DNA of 39,491 bases from a virus: IMG/VR virus record IMGVR_UViG_3300035698_006555, positions 1 to 39,491 of that record; one strand, written 5' to 3'. The position numbers were made by a program, and so were the translations under genes. The notes beneath the pieces were generated by a model. It was not told where the DNA came from, did no database searches, and was given only the letters and a program-made list of their open reading frames with translations. Shown piece by piece: positions 1,988-28,938 of this stretch (within the stretch, counting starts at the first letter, position 1; each line of letters begins with the position of its first letter).

Positions 1988-3706
1988 ATGAAGAAGAGAA
2001 TCATCCTGTATTCCGCGATGCTGATCGGGGCAACCATCGCCGCGGCCCAGGACCTGAGCGTCCCTACAATAGATATTTATGCCGACATCATGTTTCCACA
2101 ACGGGAATTCGCAATGCGAAGCGCGTCCGGATCGACTCCGGTCTTCCGCCTTTACACAGTATACGACGGGAACGAATTCAACGCGATGACGGGGACCGTC
2201 ACCTGGGCGGGCATCTTTTACTATTACGGCGCCGACTGGAACGCGACAAACTGGGTCGACATCCCCAGTACGACGTCCGGATCAAACTACCTGGACTTCG
2301 CTTGTGCGGTCGGGGACACGGCGACGAATGGGGAATTCACTGCGTTCTTTGTCGTCACGAATAGCGCCGGGAAAGTGTATCGATGGGGCCCTGGGGCCCT
2401 TACGTTAGACTACGTTCCGCCGCTTCTTTATGGCGGGGTCGGGCTCGACCTTTCAAGCTCCGGCACTGATCACGGGGGAATGACGGGCCTTTCCGACGAC
2501 GATCATCCGCAATATGTTTTGACGAACGACACGGCAAGCGTCGATCTGTCGGGATCCCCTTCCGTCCTGGTCCCTGAGTATGGGACGAACGATCCGGCGG
2601 ACGCGGTTTCTTATTCTCTTCTGACGTCCAGTGTGTCGTCAGTCCACAACGACATGACGGGGAAACAAGGCGGCACAACTGCCGAGTATTACCATTTCAC
2701 GGCGGCAGAACATACGATTCTTGCTTTATATGGCGCGATCAATCCGAGCGCAAACGTCCAATCCCTTTTGGGCGCGGCGAACTATGCGGCAATGCTGACC
2801 TTGCTTGACCTTGAAATCGGCATAGACGTGCAGGCATGGAGTGCGGTACTGGACACGCTTGCAACGCTGGACGGTGGAAGCTTGACGAATCTTACAGAGC
2901 GGGACCCCGTATGGGTGGCTGTATCGAACACGGTTACTACAGGCGCGGCGTTGGGCGCGACATCGGTACAGTCCGACATGAGCACACACATGTCGTTAGG
3001 TTCTGCTTTCTTCATATACTTTGACACTGACGATGCGGTGATGGTTTTACGAGATGCTTCCGCAGAGAACAAGGTGCGACTCTTTGAGACAAACTATGCG
3101 TACATGGTGTGGGCCGATAACGACCAGTACGACACGCAAGCGAAATTGGCAACCGACACCTACGCGATAGAGGTTCCTACCGGTAGAGGCGACACAAAGG
3201 TTAACGATTTACTGGCAGACACCGTTACGGCCACAGACTTCGTTGGGGACGGCGGAAGCCTAACGAACCTGAACGGCGCAAACGTCCAAGCCGGAACGAT
3301 AGATGAGACAGCCCTTGATGTGAGCGTGAATGCCTCGCTTGACCTTGCTGATAGCGCAATACAATCCTGGGCAAGCGTCCCTTCTTTCGTCATCGAAATG
3401 TCGGGGACGACGTTATATGACGCCGAAGGGGACGCCCTGGACTTCGATCTGGAACTGGCAGAAAACGGGGCCTGGACAAACTCGACCTATCTTATCACTA
3501 CGAACTCGACCGCCGGATGGTCCTTCTGGAATGGGTCATCGATGCAGGCCTTCCCGGCGACCGGACTTCCTTCTGAATACTGCGACCAGGACACGGGGCT
3601 GGTTATATATGAATCCACAAACACGGCGGCGACAATATGGGCCCGCTTCAGATCTTACGACGGCGCCGACTTTAGCGACTACAGAATAAGAAGGATTAAC
3701 CGATGA
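1988..3706 (+). CDS. Secreted tail-fibre-like protein with GLSDDDHPQY and GGT-YYH fibre motifs
   Basis: The 572-residue product starts with a textbook Sec signal peptide: Lys-Lys-Arg, a hydrophobic core and AAA at 18-20. The ATG at 1988 is preferred over the in-frame TTG at 1946 because it follows GAAAGGA and begins the signal peptide. GLSDDDHPQY at about 167-176 and GGTTAEYYHFT at about 228-238 match short motifs common in phage fibres. DGGSLTNL occurs twice, at about 295 and 421. Residues about 276-460 are encoded with a visibly different codon mix (more GTA, TTA, GGT, AGA), which suggests an acquired segment. The gene ends in an ATGA overlap with the next. A receptor-binding or fibre role is inferred. 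Confidence 0.8.
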   Translation: MKKRIILYSAMLIGATIAAAQDLSVPTIDIYADIMFPQREFAMRSASGSTPVFRLYTVYDGNEFNAMTGTVTWAGIFYYYGADWNATNWVDIPSTTSGSNYLDFACAVGDTATNGEFTAFFVVTNSAGKVYRWGPGALTLDYVPPLLYGGVGLDLSSSGTDHGGMTGLSDDDHPQYVLTNDTASVDLSGSPSVLVPEYGTNDPADAVSYSLLTSSVSSVHNDMTGKQGGTTAEYYHFTAAEHTILALYGAINPSANVQSLLGAANYAAMLTLLDLEIGIDVQAWSAVLDTLATLDGGSLTNLTERDPVWVAVSNTVTTGAALGATSVQSDMSTHMSLGSAFFIYFDTDDAVMVLRDASAENKVRLFETNYAYMVWADNDQYDTQAKLATDTYAIEVPTGRGDTKVNDLLADTVTATDFVGDGGSLTNLNGANVQAGTIDETALDVSVNASLDLADSAIQSWASVPSFVIEMSGTTLYDAEGDALDFDLELAENGAWTNSTYLITTNSTAGWSFWNGSSMQAFPATGLPSEYCDQDTGLVIYESTNTAATIWARFRSYDGADFSDYRIRRINR

Positions 3707-4323
3707 AAAGAATCTTCGTTTTGATCGTGATATGCGCGGGGATCGCCGCGACGGCGGGGGCATGGTTTGGCGGGGCGTCGGGGGATCCGATCGTCATCGT
3801 CGCCGCTTCGGAATGGGTCGCCATAACGAACACGACCCCGAACCTGTCGACCGACGCCTTCGACCTGGGCGACGCCGACGCCGTCATCGGGGAAAAATAT
3901 CATGGGCTGGATACGCCTTTCGACGACGGCGGATCCGTCGCCCTTCGCGTTTGGTTTATGCCATACCCGGACCCCGTCACAACGCTTTATGACGAAATGC
4001 TGATCCAGTATCACGAAGGAAGCGGTCCGACGATTGATTCGGATTGGACGACGATCGCGTCCATCGATGACGGCCTGGAAGCCCGCCTGGGGACGGGCGG
4101 TCTTCACTTCGGGGCCCGATGGATCCCGCCTTGCGTGACAAACGCTGTCCCTTACAATACTAACTATCTGATCCGGGTATATGCGAAGCTCACGGACGCA
4201 ACGGAAAGCAGCGACCTAGCAGAAACCGGGATCGGCGCGGATGGAAACTCTGGGACATGGGACGACAATGAAGTCCTATTGATCAATGTCACAACCAACA
4301 GAAAGCCGGGATATGTTTACTAG
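3703..4323 (+). CDS. Secreted beta-rich protein of the adhesion cluster, function unknown
   Basis: The 206-residue product begins with a Sec-type signal peptide: MKR, a hydrophobic stretch to about residue 17, and AGA at 18-20. The mature part is acidic, with many Thr/Asn and aromatic residues in strand-like alternation and no recognised catalytic motif. Translation is coupled to the preceding fibre gene by an ATGA overlap at 3703, and the next signal-peptide gene starts inside its last codons. Its position among four consecutive secreted-looking genes suggests a fibre accessory, chaperone or surface adhesin, but this is inference. Confidence 0.75.
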   Translation: MKRIFVLIVICAGIAATAGAWFGGASGDPIVIVAASEWVAITNTTPNLSTDAFDLGDADAVIGEKYHGLDTPFDDGGSVALRVWFMPYPDPVTTLYDEMLIQYHEGSGPTIDSDWTTIASIDDGLEARLGTGGLHFGARWIPPCVTNAVPYNTNYLIRVYAKLTDATESSDLAETGIGADGNSGTWDDNEVLLINVTTNRKPGYVY

Positions 4324-5873: not shown

Positions 5874-6224
5874 ATGGCACCGCCAAACCATCAAGGGGAC
5901 ACCTTCGCCGAATCACTGGGCAACTTCACGATCGAGCGCGTAAAGAACCGATTGAAAAGGGCGAAGGCGATCATCGATTCGAACGACTTCGCGGGATGTC
6001 CGGCGACGGGGATCCGCGACGCCTGGGAAGCCCTTCTGGAAATCCACGAAATCGTCGCGGCGGGATTGTGTATCCTGGTCGAACGTCGGGGCGACCGTCA
6101 TCCCCGGAACTTCCAGGACTGGGCTTTTTCGCTTCTGTATCACGCCCCCCTGGCCGCGGCCCTGGTCTTTTTCTCCGTCGTCCTTCTGAAAATTAACGGG
6201 CTAGACGTAAAGGATGTTTTCTAA
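5874..6224 (+). CDS. Small protein with one C-terminal membrane segment, possible holin-like protein
   Basis: The 116-residue product starts at an ATG four bases after an unusual all-G Shine-Dalgarno site (eight G then AGA). An upstream in-frame ATG at 5775 is rejected because it lies inside the previous gene. The N-terminal two thirds is soluble and helical; one hydrophobic segment lies at about residues 92-107, followed by a short acidic tail. It sits directly before two cysteine hydrolases, with a TAATG overlap to the first, so it may help release or localise a lytic enzyme. A single membrane span near the C-terminus is not diagnostic of a holin. Confidence 0.7.
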   Translation: MAPPNHQGDTFAESLGNFTIERVKNRLKRAKAIIDSNDFAGCPATGIRDAWEALLEIHEIVAAGLCILVERRGDRHPRNFQDWAFSLLYHAPLAAALVFFSVVLLKINGLDVKDVF

Positions 6225-6931
6225 TGGATGCAACACGATTCAAAAAGAGTCCCGATCCGGTCTTGTCTGAATACTGGGACAACAAACATCCGACGGCCCC
6301 AGTGGTCTACAACGGACGCACGATCCCCGGAATGAACGTCGCATATCCGATGGATGTCCGAAGGTTTATCTGGGGCGATGACGTCGTCCTGGGCGACATG
6401 ATCGATTCAGGGGACCGCTATCTGGACAAAGCCCTTGCGGCGGACAGCATGGACACGGTCGCCTTTATGGTCCAGAAGGCCGTCGTCCGGTCGATCCAAT
6501 ACGTCGCCGACAAATCCCTGGATCCGGAACGGAATGAATTCTGGCTTTTCCCTGGGGAAACCCGATTACGATGCAAGGGCGATTGTGAAGACGGGGCGAT
6601 CCTGATCGCGTCCCTTTGTTTGAACCTGGGGATCCCCCCGGACCGGATCCGCGTCGCGGCGGGGACAGTGAAGACGGGAAGGACCGAAACCGGGGGACAC
6701 GCCTGGGCAACATACCGCCGGGAATCTGACGACGAATGGGTCGCCCTGGACTGGTGTTTTCACGTCGACGACCTGACAAGGGTCAAAGACAAGAAACCCC
6801 TGAAGGACATGGATCCATACTTCGGGGGGAATCTGGTCTGGTTTAGCTTCAACAATTTACACGCATGGTCACACGAAGAAGACATCGCGATCGAAGGACG
6901 TATCCGGTCCGCGGTCCGGGGGAACTTATGA
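6224..6931 (+). CDS. Transglutaminase-like cysteine hydrolase
   Basis: The 235-residue product carries the catalytic triad pattern of the transglutaminase/bacterial cysteine protease fold: Cys121 in GDCEDGA, His159 in GGHAW and Asp176 in ALDWC, with the usual spacing. There is no signal peptide. In phages such proteins act as peptidases or amidases, sometimes on peptidoglycan stems, so a lysis or virion-associated role fits its place after the adhesion genes and before a second cysteine hydrolase. The fold and active residues are visible; the substrate is inferred. Confidence 0.82.
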   Translation: MDATRFKKSPDPVLSEYWDNKHPTAPVVYNGRTIPGMNVAYPMDVRRFIWGDDVVLGDMIDSGDRYLDKALAADSMDTVAFMVQKAVVRSIQYVADKSLDPERNEFWLFPGETRLRCKGDCEDGAILIASLCLNLGIPPDRIRVAAGTVKTGRTETGGHAWATYRRESDDEWVALDWCFHVDDLTRVKDKKPLKDMDPYFGGNLVWFSFNNLHAWSHEEDIAIEGRIRSAVRGNL

Positions 6932-12809: not shown

Positions 12810-12838
12810 GGGGGCCCTGGGATGGTCCTGGGGCCCCC
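12810..12838 (+). terminator. Strong GC hairpin between recombination genes
   Basis: GGGGGCCC at 12810-12817 pairs perfectly with GGGCCCCC at 12831-12838, and the loop can pair further (GGA with TCC). No T-tract follows; instead ACAACTACACAAAAAAGGAACT leads to the next gene. It may cut expression of downstream genes relative to the highly expressed annealing protein. Confidence 0.55.
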
Positions 12839-12866
12839 ACAACTACACAAAAAAGGAACTGTCATC

Positions 12867-13886
12867 ATGGTAAAGAAGAAATCAGACTTCGCCGCGGAAG
12901 CGAAGGCATGGAACAAGGATCATCCGAAAGGGATGGAAGTTGCGATCATAGGCGACGACGGAAACCGATGGATTGGGATCCTGGCCGATGTCGCGGAAGC
13001 GATCGGGAAGATCGCGGACGGCGTGACGGTCGTCGCGAAGGTCTACCGCGGGGAATTGGAAGACGGGATTCATCAAACGTCGGGCGAACACGTCGACGCG
13101 ACGGGCGAACCTGTCGAACGGACTATTATCCCGGACCACGGGACCCCGGTCATCCAGATCCCGATCGGGCGGATCCGGAAGCGGGCGATCGAACGGAAGG
13201 GGACGTCGAATCCCCTTCGCGTCCAGTTGACGACCGAAGAACGCCTGGAAGCAGGGAATCAGATCGCCGACGCGATGCAAACGATTTCCACAAGGAAGTC
13301 GGATCTGGACAAGATCAAAAAGAAGATCGGGGCGGAAGTCCTGGCCGCGGAATCCACCGTCGAAGCAGAGTCTGACAGACTTCGGTCTGGATATGAAATC
13401 CGTCCCGTCGAATGCCTGGACGTTGTCGACTTCGACAAATCGATCGTCACGGTCATCCGGAAGGACACCGGGGCCCAGATCACGGAAAGGAAGATCACGG
13501 GGGACGAACGCGCGAAGGAATTGGATCTGTTCCCGGAACTTCCCGCGAAAGAAGACAAGGAAGGCGCCCCAGGCGACGGGAAAACGCCTGAAGCGAAGGA
13601 AGGCAAGCAAACACCCGCGACCGCCCCGAAGGAAGCTTCAGGCGGATCCAGGCCCCCGAAGTCTGATCTTGTCGACGAAGGTCATATCGAAGCGGCGATG
13701 CAGGTCATGAGGGAGTCGAAGCGGGCTTCGACATCGCTTGTCCAGCGACGCCTGAAAATCGGATACGGGGCCGCTTGCAATATCATGGACGTCCTGGAAG
13801 AAAAGGGGGTCATATCGGCGCCCGCTTCTGAAGGTGGGGCCCGCGAAATTCTGATCGACCTTGACGCGGATCAGAAAACCGACTAG
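12867..13886 (+). CDS. Phage recombination-region protein ending in an FtsK-gamma winged helix
   Basis: The 339-residue product starts at 12867 after AAAAGGAACT; 12822 is rejected because it lies in the hairpin. Its middle part (about 125-235) contains LTTEERLEAGNQIADAMQ, a coiled coil, and SGYEIRPVECLDVVDFDKS, a conserved phage protein pattern of unknown role. A Pro/Lys/Ala linker follows. The last 73 residues match the FtsK gamma domain: EAAMQVMRESKRASTSLVQR, RLKIGYGAACNIMDVLEEKG and a beta wing REILID. In FtsK this winged helix binds KOPS DNA and activates XerD. No motor domain is present, so this is a domain fusion that may direct the protein to DNA sites or host Xer recombinase. Confidence 0.82.
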   Translation: MVKKKSDFAAEAKAWNKDHPKGMEVAIIGDDGNRWIGILADVAEAIGKIADGVTVVAKVYRGELEDGIHQTSGEHVDATGEPVERTIIPDHGTPVIQIPIGRIRKRAIERKGTSNPLRVQLTTEERLEAGNQIADAMQTISTRKSDLDKIKKKIGAEVLAAESTVEAESDRLRSGYEIRPVECLDVVDFDKSIVTVIRKDTGAQITERKITGDERAKELDLFPELPAKEDKEGAPGDGKTPEAKEGKQTPATAPKEASGGSRPPKSDLVDEGHIEAAMQVMRESKRASTSLVQRRLKIGYGAACNIMDVLEEKGVISAPASEGGAREILIDLDADQKTD

Positions 13887-25026: not shown

Positions 25027-25722
25027 ATGAACCTGACGACCATCCTGGCGAAGATCGCCCGCGGCGAAGACTTGTCCGAAGCTGAAAAAGCCTTCATCGC
25101 GGAATATGATCATCAAGCGGCGATCGACGCGATCGCGGCAAACGCTCGTCGCAAATCGGAAGATCGCGCAACCGTCGCCGAAAAGGAACTGACGGAAGCG
25201 AACCGAAAAGCGAAAGAGATCCAGGACGCCCTGGAAGCGAAGGAACTCGAAGGCAAACCGGAACTGGAAAAGCTTCAAGCGGAAAACGAACGCCTGAAGA
25301 CCCAGATCGCCGAACGGGACACCCAGATCGAAACCCTGTCGAAAGACAAGGAAGGTCTGACCCGCGAATCGACACTGGAAACAGTCTTCCGAAAAGCCGG
25401 ACTTCAATTCGTTGACAAGGTCGATGCGGTCGCGATGACGGCCTTCTTCAAAAACGCCTTCGGGACCCTGTCCCTGGAAGATCTGGGCGACGACGCCCTG
25501 GTCGGGCCGATTGTGGAAGCGTTCAAAAGCGCGAACGAAGCGATCCTGGCAGACACTTCAGGTCATGGATCCGGGGACGAACCGAAGAATCGGATCACGT
25601 TCCAGGGGGCAAGTGTCGCGAATCCCTGGTCGAAGGACACGATGAATCTGACCTTGCAAGGACAGATCTTCAAAGAGAATCCCGCGTTAGCGGAGAAACT
25701 AAAAAAGCAAGCTGTCGGATAG
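25027..25722 (+). CDS. Capsid scaffolding protein
   Basis: The 231-residue product is highly charged and helical, with a coiled coil at about 45-115 (EKLQAENERLKTQIAERDTQ). The C-terminus NPWSKDTMNLTLQGQIFKEN followed by PALAEKLKKQ matches the end of many siphophage scaffolds. It lies directly before the major capsid gene and lacks any signal peptide. No protease gene is apparent, so scaffold removal may be by release. Confidence 0.8.
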   Translation: MNLTTILAKIARGEDLSEAEKAFIAEYDHQAAIDAIAANARRKSEDRATVAEKELTEANRKAKEIQDALEAKELEGKPELEKLQAENERLKTQIAERDTQIETLSKDKEGLTRESTLETVFRKAGLQFVDKVDAVAMTAFFKNAFGTLSLEDLGDDALVGPIVEAFKSANEAILADTSGHGSGDEPKNRITFQGASVANPWSKDTMNLTLQGQIFKENPALAEKLKKQAVG

Positions 25723-25753
25723 TCCGGCACACTGGGAAAGAAGGGGTTATATT

Positions 25754-26827
25754 ATGTTGAATATTGATGTATTGATGGGGCTATGCGGCCTTGTGGGGCT
25801 CTGGGGATGTCTGGGCGTGGTAGCGACGGCGACGAAGGTGTCCGACGTGATTCAGCCTGAGATCTGGGCGCCGTACATGATCGAACGGACCGCCGAACTG
25901 TCGTCCCTGATCGCGATGGGGATCGTCGAGTCGGATCCTGAGATTCAGCGGTTGATTCAAGAGGGCGGACGAATGATCGACCTTCCCTTCTGGACCGATC
26001 TGGACGGGGCTGAAGAGTCTATACAGGACGATTCTGATCTGACACCCGCGGCGATCGATGCGTCACAAGATCAGGCCGTCAAGCTGATCCGCGGAAAAGC
26101 CTGGGGCGTGAATGATCTTGCGAAACACTTGTCGGGATCCGATCCCGCGAAGGCGATCGCCGATCTGGTCGCGGCATGGTGGAACCGTAGGGAACAGGCA
26201 ATTCTGATCAATGTCCTGGCGGGCGTCTTTGCTGATAACGTCGCGAACGATAGCGGCGACATGGTCAAGGATATTGCGATCGAAGAAGGAACCGCGGCCC
26301 TTGCGGCGAATCTTATCAGCGGCGAAGCTGTCATCGATGCGGCCCAGACTATGGGCGACGCGAAGGACAAGCTGACAGCAATGGCGATCCATTCGGTGGT
26401 CGAAGCGCGACTGGCAAAGAATGACCTGATCGAATACGAACGCGATTCGACTGGGACGATCGTGAAGCGGACCTTCATGGGTCTTTCGCTGATCGTGAAC
26501 GACTCCTGTCCGACTGTCGACGGAACGACCGACGGCACGAAATACACGTCCTACCTTTTCGGACGCGGCGCAATCGCCCGCGGCGACAAGACACTGGACG
26601 CCGGGGAAGCGGTCGAAACGGACAGGGACGGTCTTGCTTCTGAGACATACCTGATCACCCGCCGACACCTGATCATTCATCCGCGCGGCGCCGCATGGCA
26701 GGACGCAACTGTCAGTAACACGTCCCCCAGGAATCCTTCGAACGCGAATCTGGCCGTCGAAGCGAACTGGAATCGTGTCTACGAACGAAAGAACCTTCGC
26801 CTTGCGTCCCTGATCACGAACGGCTAG
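25754..26827 (+). CDS. Major capsid protein with an N-terminal signal-like extension
   Basis: From residue 27 on, TKVSDVIQPEIWAPYMIERT and ELSSLIAMGIVES match the start of HK97-fold capsid proteins of a known phage family, with the later parts (YLITRRHLIIHPRGAAW, NLRLASLITNG-like end) also typical. Before it lies a 26-residue hydrophobic extension ending in ATA, like a signal peptide or membrane anchor, though without basic residues at the start. The ATG at 25754 is supported by AAGGGG at 25741-25746. A GTG near codon 22 would give the usual form but lacks an equally good site. The product is 357 residues. Confidence 0.88.
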   Translation: MLNIDVLMGLCGLVGLWGCLGVVATATKVSDVIQPEIWAPYMIERTAELSSLIAMGIVESDPEIQRLIQEGGRMIDLPFWTDLDGAEESIQDDSDLTPAAIDASQDQAVKLIRGKAWGVNDLAKHLSGSDPAKAIADLVAAWWNRREQAILINVLAGVFADNVANDSGDMVKDIAIEEGTAALAANLISGEAVIDAAQTMGDAKDKLTAMAIHSVVEARLAKNDLIEYERDSTGTIVKRTFMGLSLIVNDSCPTVDGTTDGTKYTSYLFGRGAIARGDKTLDAGEAVETDRDGLASETYLITRRHLIIHPRGAAWQDATVSNTSPRNPSNANLAVEANWNRVYERKNLRLASLITNG

Positions 26828-27343: not shown

Positions 27344-27766
27344 ATGAAACATCTTCGACTTCAAATTCTGGCACTCCTGGCCGTCATGGCTATCCTGGCA
27401 ACCGGGGCGCTGGCCGCGGATCCGCCCATACTCGAAGGGGCGGCGACTAATTCGGTGACTCTGGCGAATGCACTGGGGCGGGCGTATGAGCTCGAAGGAG
27501 TCTTCGTCAAGGTCCGCGGGGACACGACCACGACGAACACCCTGGCGATCGCCGTCATTAACACCCAGGACACGGACCTGACGGGAACTAATGCGACCCA
27601 GACCGCGATCACTTACACGATCAAAGAGTCGGGAAGCTATACAACCGGATATGACTGGACACCGGACGAACTGATCCGCGTTCCGACTGGGGCTTCGCTG
27701 AAGTTGACATTCACGGGGTCTTGCACAAACGACTATCTGATCTTCCGCGACGACGCGGACGACTAA
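27344..27766 (+). CDS. Secreted-looking head accessory protein, 140 residues
   Basis: The ATG at 27344 (after AGAGGTAACGAG) begins a clear signal peptide: MKHLR, a long Leu/Ala core, and ALAA before Asp26. A TTG at 27299 upstream is not needed. The mature part is Thr/Asn-rich and strand-like, ending with SLKLTFTGSC. It may decorate the capsid or act at the cell surface. Placing a signal-peptide gene directly among head genes is unusual and is repeated in the next gene. Confidence 0.78.
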   Translation: MKHLRLQILALLAVMAILATGALAADPPILEGAATNSVTLANALGRAYELEGVFVKVRGDTTTTNTLAIAVINTQDTDLTGTNATQTAITYTIKESGSYTTGYDWTPDELIRVPTGASLKLTFTGSCTNDYLIFRDDADD

Positions 27767-27833: not shown

Positions 27834-28544
27834 ATGAAAAGATTCTTTGTTATAGCGGCGGCGATACTGATCGCGGCCCTCACAGTCCACGCGGACGGTC
27901 TGTCCGCAATCCGGATCCAGCGGGCACTGAACGGGGTCGCACCTTCCGGATCCATATCGTCCGACGAAATCGCGACCGGGGCCGTCGGGACTTCGGAAGT
28001 CCTGGATGAAACCATCGGGCCCGACGACATGGACGACGGGGACGACGGGGCCGTCGTCGCGGCGGTCGGATATGTCGCGGAGTCTGTTGTCTTCACGAAG
28101 AGAACGACCTTTACGGCGACAAACCTTGTCCTGACGGCGACCGCCGGAAGCGACGAAGGCGAATCGACGAAGATCTTCGACCTGGACGACGGGGCGATCT
28201 TGTTACAGGTCGCGGTCGCGAATATGGAAGTCATTTCGTCCGTCGACGCGACGAATGTTTTCGTCGTATCGATCGGGACCGCCGCGGCGGCGGACGATGC
28301 AAGCTTGACAGGGACGGAAGCGAACATCATCCCTTCGACGTCGATTGACACAACCGCCGGGACCGTCATGACGAACGACTTCGACGCTATCCTTGCGGCG
28401 CCCTTCACGATCGACGGGACAGCGACCGCGGGCGACATTTACATGAATGCTGGCATCGTTGACGCCGACATGACGAACGACGTGACACTGACCTTCAGCG
28501 GGACTGTCACCCTGGACTATATCCCCGGCGTTGACAATCAATAG
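27834..28544 (+). CDS. Secreted-looking head accessory protein, 236 residues
   Basis: The start at 27834 follows AAAGGGAAGGCGAC and begins a signal peptide (MKRFFVIAAAILIAALTVHA, cleavage after residue 20). The mature protein contains SGSISSDEIATGAVGTSEVL followed by DETI, a motif style shared with fibre repeats, then Thr/Ala/Asp-rich strands and a final LTFSGTVTLDYI. It resembles a beta-sandwich head fibre or decoration protein. It has the second signal peptide among three consecutive small head genes. Confidence 0.78.
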   Translation: MKRFFVIAAAILIAALTVHADGLSAIRIQRALNGVAPSGSISSDEIATGAVGTSEVLDETIGPDDMDDGDDGAVVAAVGYVAESVVFTKRTTFTATNLVLTATAGSDEGESTKIFDLDDGAILLQVAVANMEVISSVDATNVFVVSIGTAAAADDASLTGTEANIIPSTSIDTTAGTVMTNDFDAILAAPFTIDGTATAGDIYMNAGIVDADMTNDVTLTFSGTVTLDYIPGVDNQ

Positions 28545-28668: not shown

Positions 28669-28938
28669 ATGACGAAGGTCCGAAAGTGGAAAGCCCTTGC
28701 GACCGCCGTCCTGGCAATGGGCGCTATCATCGTCGAGTTGTGTTGGAAAACTACGCCTATGACTACGGTCCAGGCATTGCCCACGGACGTATGTCGGGCA
28801 GAACAGGAAGGGTCTGAAATGGCAAAGACAGTCAAAATGAAGAAAGACACTTGCATCGTCGACGCCGCGGCGTCCGCCGCCGCCGGATATAAGAAGGCCG
28901 GATGGGAAATCGTAAAGACGACCGCCGCAAAGAACTAG
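28669..28938 (+). CDS. Small head protein with an N-terminal signal-like extension
   Basis: The C-terminal 39 residues (MAKTVKMKKDTCIVDAAASA, then YKKAGWEIV) match a small conserved protein usually encoded after the capsid gene. A preceding 50-residue region has basic residues, a hydrophobic core (about 10-24) and VQA at 34-36. If translation starts at 28669 the family member carries a signal-like N-terminus, as the capsid protein does. If it starts at the internal ATG at 28819 (after GGAAGGGTCTGAA) it is the ordinary short protein. Both may be made. Confidence 0.65.
   Translation: MTKVRKWKALATAVLAMGAIIVELCWKTTPMTTVQALPTDVCRAEQEGSEMAKTVKMKKDTCIVDAAASAAAGYKKAGWEIVKTTAAKN

Follow-up and report, generated by a model that had tools for sequence, protein, structure and literature searches.

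On the prevailing view, the heads of tailed phages are built in the cytoplasm out of soluble capsid subunits, and to our knowledge the T4 portal is the sole known case of a head being tied to a membrane. Why, then, does the major capsid protein of one tailed phage begin with a hydrophobic stretch? The question arises from an IMG/VR virus record of 39,491 bases, here called the window (the whole stretch of DNA that was analysed). From the letters of the window, the original prediction had read residues 1-26 of this protein as a signal-peptide-like extension. Searches of the open-access literature turned up no tailed phage in which the capsid protein was described as hydrophobic or as carrying a signal. 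We find that the extension is real and that its hydrophobicity is under selection, and propose a possible role as an anchor or staple of the assembling head. Because a selected N-terminus of transmembrane length is present in one clade and absent from its sister, direct tests can be made of membrane-guided assembly or of a new hydrophobic capsid staple.

The extended protein within the SPP1 gp13 family

The window derives from a tailed phage; its genes for terminase, portal, scaffold, capsid, minor head and tape-measure proteins follow an SPP1-like order. Two of its genes are central here:

25754-26827, plus strand: major capsid protein, SPP1 gp13-like (phrog_247, PF20036), by profile matches and fold
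25027-25722, plus strand: scaffolding protein gene, directly upstream of the capsid gene, with a C-terminal region conserved with an unextended sister

The capsid reading frame (357 aa, ATG start) matches phrog_247 across the whole core (E 6.6e-100) and PF20036 at 34.6 bits against a cut-off of 26.4; PDB 6r3a matches by sequence at E 2.5e-69 and is also the best solved fold. SPP1 gp13 (PDB 6r3a, 4an5) thus shares family and fold with the window protein, and both phages place a separate scaffold gene directly upstream of the capsid gene. The two proteins differ at the N-terminus: SPP1 Thr4, preceded by Met-Ala-Tyr alone, aligns with window Thr27, which is preceded by the 26 residues MLNIDVLMGLCGLVGLWGCLGVVATA. 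Judged by sequence, the extended protein is a variant within the known SPP1 gp13 family, and its departure at the N-terminus is not grounds for exclusion.

Other additions to capsid N-termini are of a different kind. The delta domain of HK97 and T5 is likewise an extra N-terminal capsid segment, located inside the prohead, but it comprises ~100 charged residues, is removed by the phage protease and, in the HK97 type, replaces a separate scaffold. By contrast, the window has 26 hydrophobic residues and its own scaffold gene, and the head genes scanned gave no match to a protease family. Within the SPP1 gp13 family, gp48 of Enterococcus phage phiFL3A (L111) is annotated with an N-terminal addition as well, MEKSLIKMNLQIFAAK; this peptide of ~13 residues contains Lys, falls below transmembrane length and is not that of the window.

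Translation and origin of the extension

The following features define the N-terminus of the capsid gene:

25740-25746, plus strand: Shine-Dalgarno-like GAAGGGG, 7 nt upstream of the ATG, seen in the sequence; L001, L002 and L012 likewise have purine-rich sites ahead of the ATG
25754-25831, plus strand: N-terminal extension, codons 1-26, of a kind kept in four loci of one clade and absent from other sampled family members
25769-25834, plus strand: run of 22 residues (6-27) without K, R, D, E, N, Q or H, containing the small-hydrophobic-hydrophobic triplets GLC GLV GLW GCL GVV

Viral contigs yielded three closest relatives, whose capsid proteins are 70-82% identical to that of the window and carry the same kind of extension. 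They come from three independent contigs (L001/L022, L002 and L012/L021), with these extension starts:

L001: MNLEALMTIIGILGGFGFLGVVATATKV
L012: MFESLFSILGVFGLFSVLGVVATSTKV
L002: MNELLLAVGSGGGILGGLLFLVPFCLGAATKV

Each relative has its own ATG and purine-rich Shine-Dalgarno-like site, and no downstream start is common to all. Some 30-35 bases separate the scaffold stop from the capsid start in the extended relatives, and the gap is equal in the sister L003, the unextended capsid protein of which starts MAATKV. In the other 70-odd sampled family members, the protein begins at the TK motif or a few residues away from it, mostly as M-A-x-T-x (typically MA-x-TK), in line with the original prediction that the family normally begins after the extension. 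Four loci among ~80 are therefore extended, and two more viral-contig scans added none. In a tree built without the extension, these four proteins group together with support of 98/92, so that one gain suffices; within this sample of four known loci, all of one clade, the extension appears to have arisen once. One scan of prokaryote genomes for hosts or prophages returned none, and the window and two larger relatives hold no tRNA genes. The triplets at 25778-25822 correspond to a degenerate 9-base periodicity in the DNA, and the extension might have arisen by slippage.

Could the apparent extension instead be an annotation artefact, with the true start downstream and the upstream codons serving as an untranslated leader or RNA element? 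A GTG does exist at codon 22 of the window gene, and the original prediction had named downstream initiation, for example there, as one outcome that would overturn it. However, none of the three relatives has a start codon at the aligned position, and in L021 and L022 the stretch from the hydrophobic run to TKV contains no start codon at all, which makes a downstream start very unlikely. The ATG with its Shine-Dalgarno-like site, as already noted in the original prediction, the open frame and the hydrophobicity kept across four diverged loci also argue against such a start. An RNA element in these codons was rejected, as neither a stable fold (z 1.37, -0.72, 0.82, 2.02) nor an Rfam match was found. 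On the comparison of these loci, the artefact explanation appears largely refuted.

Selection for hydrophobicity

Among the four loci, synonymous change in the extension is almost saturated (pS 0.53-0.82), and pN/pS reaches 0.50-0.90 in the extension versus 0.20-0.36 in the capsid core. Despite this loose constraint, the run without charged or amide residues remains 22-27 residues long, and an uncharged run of at least 20 residues and a KD value of at least 2.1 are kept in the extensions. When the window sequence was mutated by the observed amounts under no constraint, run and hydrophobicity were both kept in <1% of trials per lineage. The hydrophobic character is thus selected, and the exact sequence much less so; selection is for hydrophobicity rather than sequence, as in lipid-facing segments.

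Comparison with Sec signal peptides

The phages themselves encode proteins with classical Sec signals, against which the extensions can be set. Four further window genes carry such signals (1988-3706, 3703-4323, 27344-27766 and 27834-28544), and others are found in G001 and G002. The capsid gene and the head-completion genes flank two of the four:

27344-27766, plus strand: secreted head-module protein with a classical Sec signal (MKHLRLQILALLAVMAILATGALA, then ADPP), with a signal-bearing homologue in the L002 contig
27834-28544, plus strand: second head-module protein with a Sec signal (MKRFFVIAAAILIAALTVHA, then DG), phrog_11997; its C-terminal part resembles a protein adjoining the tail-fibre gene of Pseudomonas phage Rollin

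If the extension were a true Sec signal, the capsid protein would be exported, cleaved or not by host signal peptidase between ATA and TKV, and the head or a sub-population of it would act outside the cytoplasm. The hydrophobicity of the extensions is indeed similar to that of Sec signals from the same phages, and the residues at -3 and -1 before TKV are small in all four (ATA, ATS, ATA, GAA), such that a cleaved product would begin at the family's normal start. Part of this pattern is ancestral, however, because the -1 Ala and the Thr are already present in the L003 start MAATK. Moreover, all four extensions contain no Lys or Arg and have one acidic residue (Asp or Glu) near the N-terminus, whereas the n-regions of the evident Sec-type proteins in the full comparison set carry charges of +1 to +4; the window proteins at 27344, 27834, 1988 and 3703 begin MK, MKR or MKK. 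Signal peptidase I substrates have an h-region of ~7-15 residues followed by a polar c-region, but the extensions have uncharged runs of 22-27 residues, longer than in most Sec-type proteins compared, and almost no c-region. The scaffold, portal and terminase of the phage also have ordinary, cytoplasmic-type N-termini. Export through Sec is accordingly an improbable account of the extension.

The original prediction was right in its observation, which has better support than could be known from the window alone, and export is not the best interpretation of it. Of the signal-peptide reading, the extension itself and the small -3 and -1 residues stand, and the cleavable export signal is not supported. 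The fallback offered with it, an assembly peptide or anchor, fits better with the absence of Lys and Arg, the acidic tip and the long uncharged run. Our best reading is of a predicted uncleaved addition to the capsid N-arm, membrane-seeking or self-packing, rather than a Sec leader.

A possible membrane tail or capsid staple

In the SPP1 procapsid, the N-terminal helix lies beneath the shell and is bound to scaffold; as the head expands, the N-arm passes through a gap, so that its tip touches the adjacent capsomere on the outside of the head, where N-arms of neighbouring capsomeres make antiparallel mutual contact (PMC6813328). By homology, the extension is added exactly at the tip of this arm. 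It could then act purely between proteins, never meeting a membrane, and pack with neighbouring N-arms or scaffold to stabilise the procapsid or expanded head like an extra clasp. Both the antiparallel contacts outside and the scaffold-bound N-terminus in the SPP1 procapsid (PMC6813328) favour such a role. So do the small-hydrophobic-hydrophobic triplets in three of the four extensions (p 0.0009-0.01 each, not independent), since a small residue at every third position could mean specific packing. Yet the L002 extension has no triplet pattern, specific contacts would be expected to conserve sequence more tightly than pN/pS values of 0.5-0.9 imply, and soluble arms do not usually contain 22 consecutive residues of which none is charged or an amide. 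A co-adapted scaffold C-terminus was not seen; this region is unchanged from that of the unextended sister, so a new scaffold contact is not an obvious reason for the extension. We regard a protein staple as a genuine but tentative possibility.

We favour over the staple a membrane-seeking tail that keeps the capsid protein at the inner membrane during assembly, with a probability of roughly 0.4, because the acidic tip followed by uncharged residues and the loose sequence constraint resemble N-out segments such as that of Pf3, and because the extended clade also has genes for secreted or single-span proteins in its head modules. The extension would be a translated, uncleaved addition of ~25 residues to an SPP1-type N-arm, in which the acidic tip and 22-27 uncharged residues would form a segment of the N-out/C-in kind handled by YidC. 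This segment would keep freshly synthesised capsid protein on the cytoplasmic side of the inner membrane while scaffold-driven heads form in the cytoplasm; once the head has expanded, the extension would be exposed on its outer surface, at the end of the N-arm.

Two phage systems offer partial precedents. The coat protein of filamentous phage Pf3 has an acidic N-tail and documented N-out insertion via YidC (PMC8548208), and its short acidic tail followed by one uncharged segment of transmembrane length is also found in the extension. Pf3 coat is, however, a small membrane-spanning protein of unrelated fold in a filamentous virion. Head initiation in T4 is membrane-bound through portal gp20, which crosslinks to YidC (PMC9958956), and would similarly place assembly at the inner membrane; there, the portal attaches rather than the capsid protein, and gp23 has no hydrophobic leader.

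Several properties weigh on the membrane tail. The charges after the segment (K28, then D31 and E36) are balanced, with no clear bias, which leaves topology unfixed and weakens the claim of a consistent N-out topology. The extension is rich in glycine, and a crude estimate of its insertion energy gives a borderline value. AlphaFold modelled the extension at pLDDT ~50, giving no usable structure. The strongest objection is geometric: with the N-terminus inside the procapsid, as in SPP1, an external membrane could not retain all of several hundred inserted copies, which would need to withdraw from it during closure of the shell. It is rather unlikely that the capsid protein itself enters the inner membrane through an N-out segment of the YidC type, with heads built on the membrane together with the small membrane and secreted proteins of the head module.

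Secreted and membrane proteins of the head module

Besides the two Sec-type proteins, the head module of the window encodes a membrane protein:

28669-28938, plus strand: small protein with one transmembrane segment, homologous to a membrane protein of 45 aa that the closest relative, G001, encodes in its head module

Secreted or membrane proteins are encoded in the head modules of 3/3 extended-clade loci versus 1/27 others, a link with the extension that is only suggestive, as it comes from one clade and is not phylogenetically independent. The unextended sister G002 has Sec-type genes too, elsewhere in its genome. The single-span protein is 40% conserved with G001:C1:30979-31113 (minus strand), both lying in head modules, and the L002 contig has an unrelated 30-aa membrane ORF in its place (L010 5828-5920). 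Scans of viral contigs returned no homologues of the 27344 and 27834 proteins, and AlphaFold gave only a low-confidence beta model for the former.

Elsewhere in the window, the protein encoded at 12822-13886 ends in an FtsK gamma (KOPS-reading) domain (E 1.4e-16), which is not usual for the replication module of a siphophage, and 6224-6931 encodes a protein with a transglutaminase-like domain that scores just above the Pfam cut-off.
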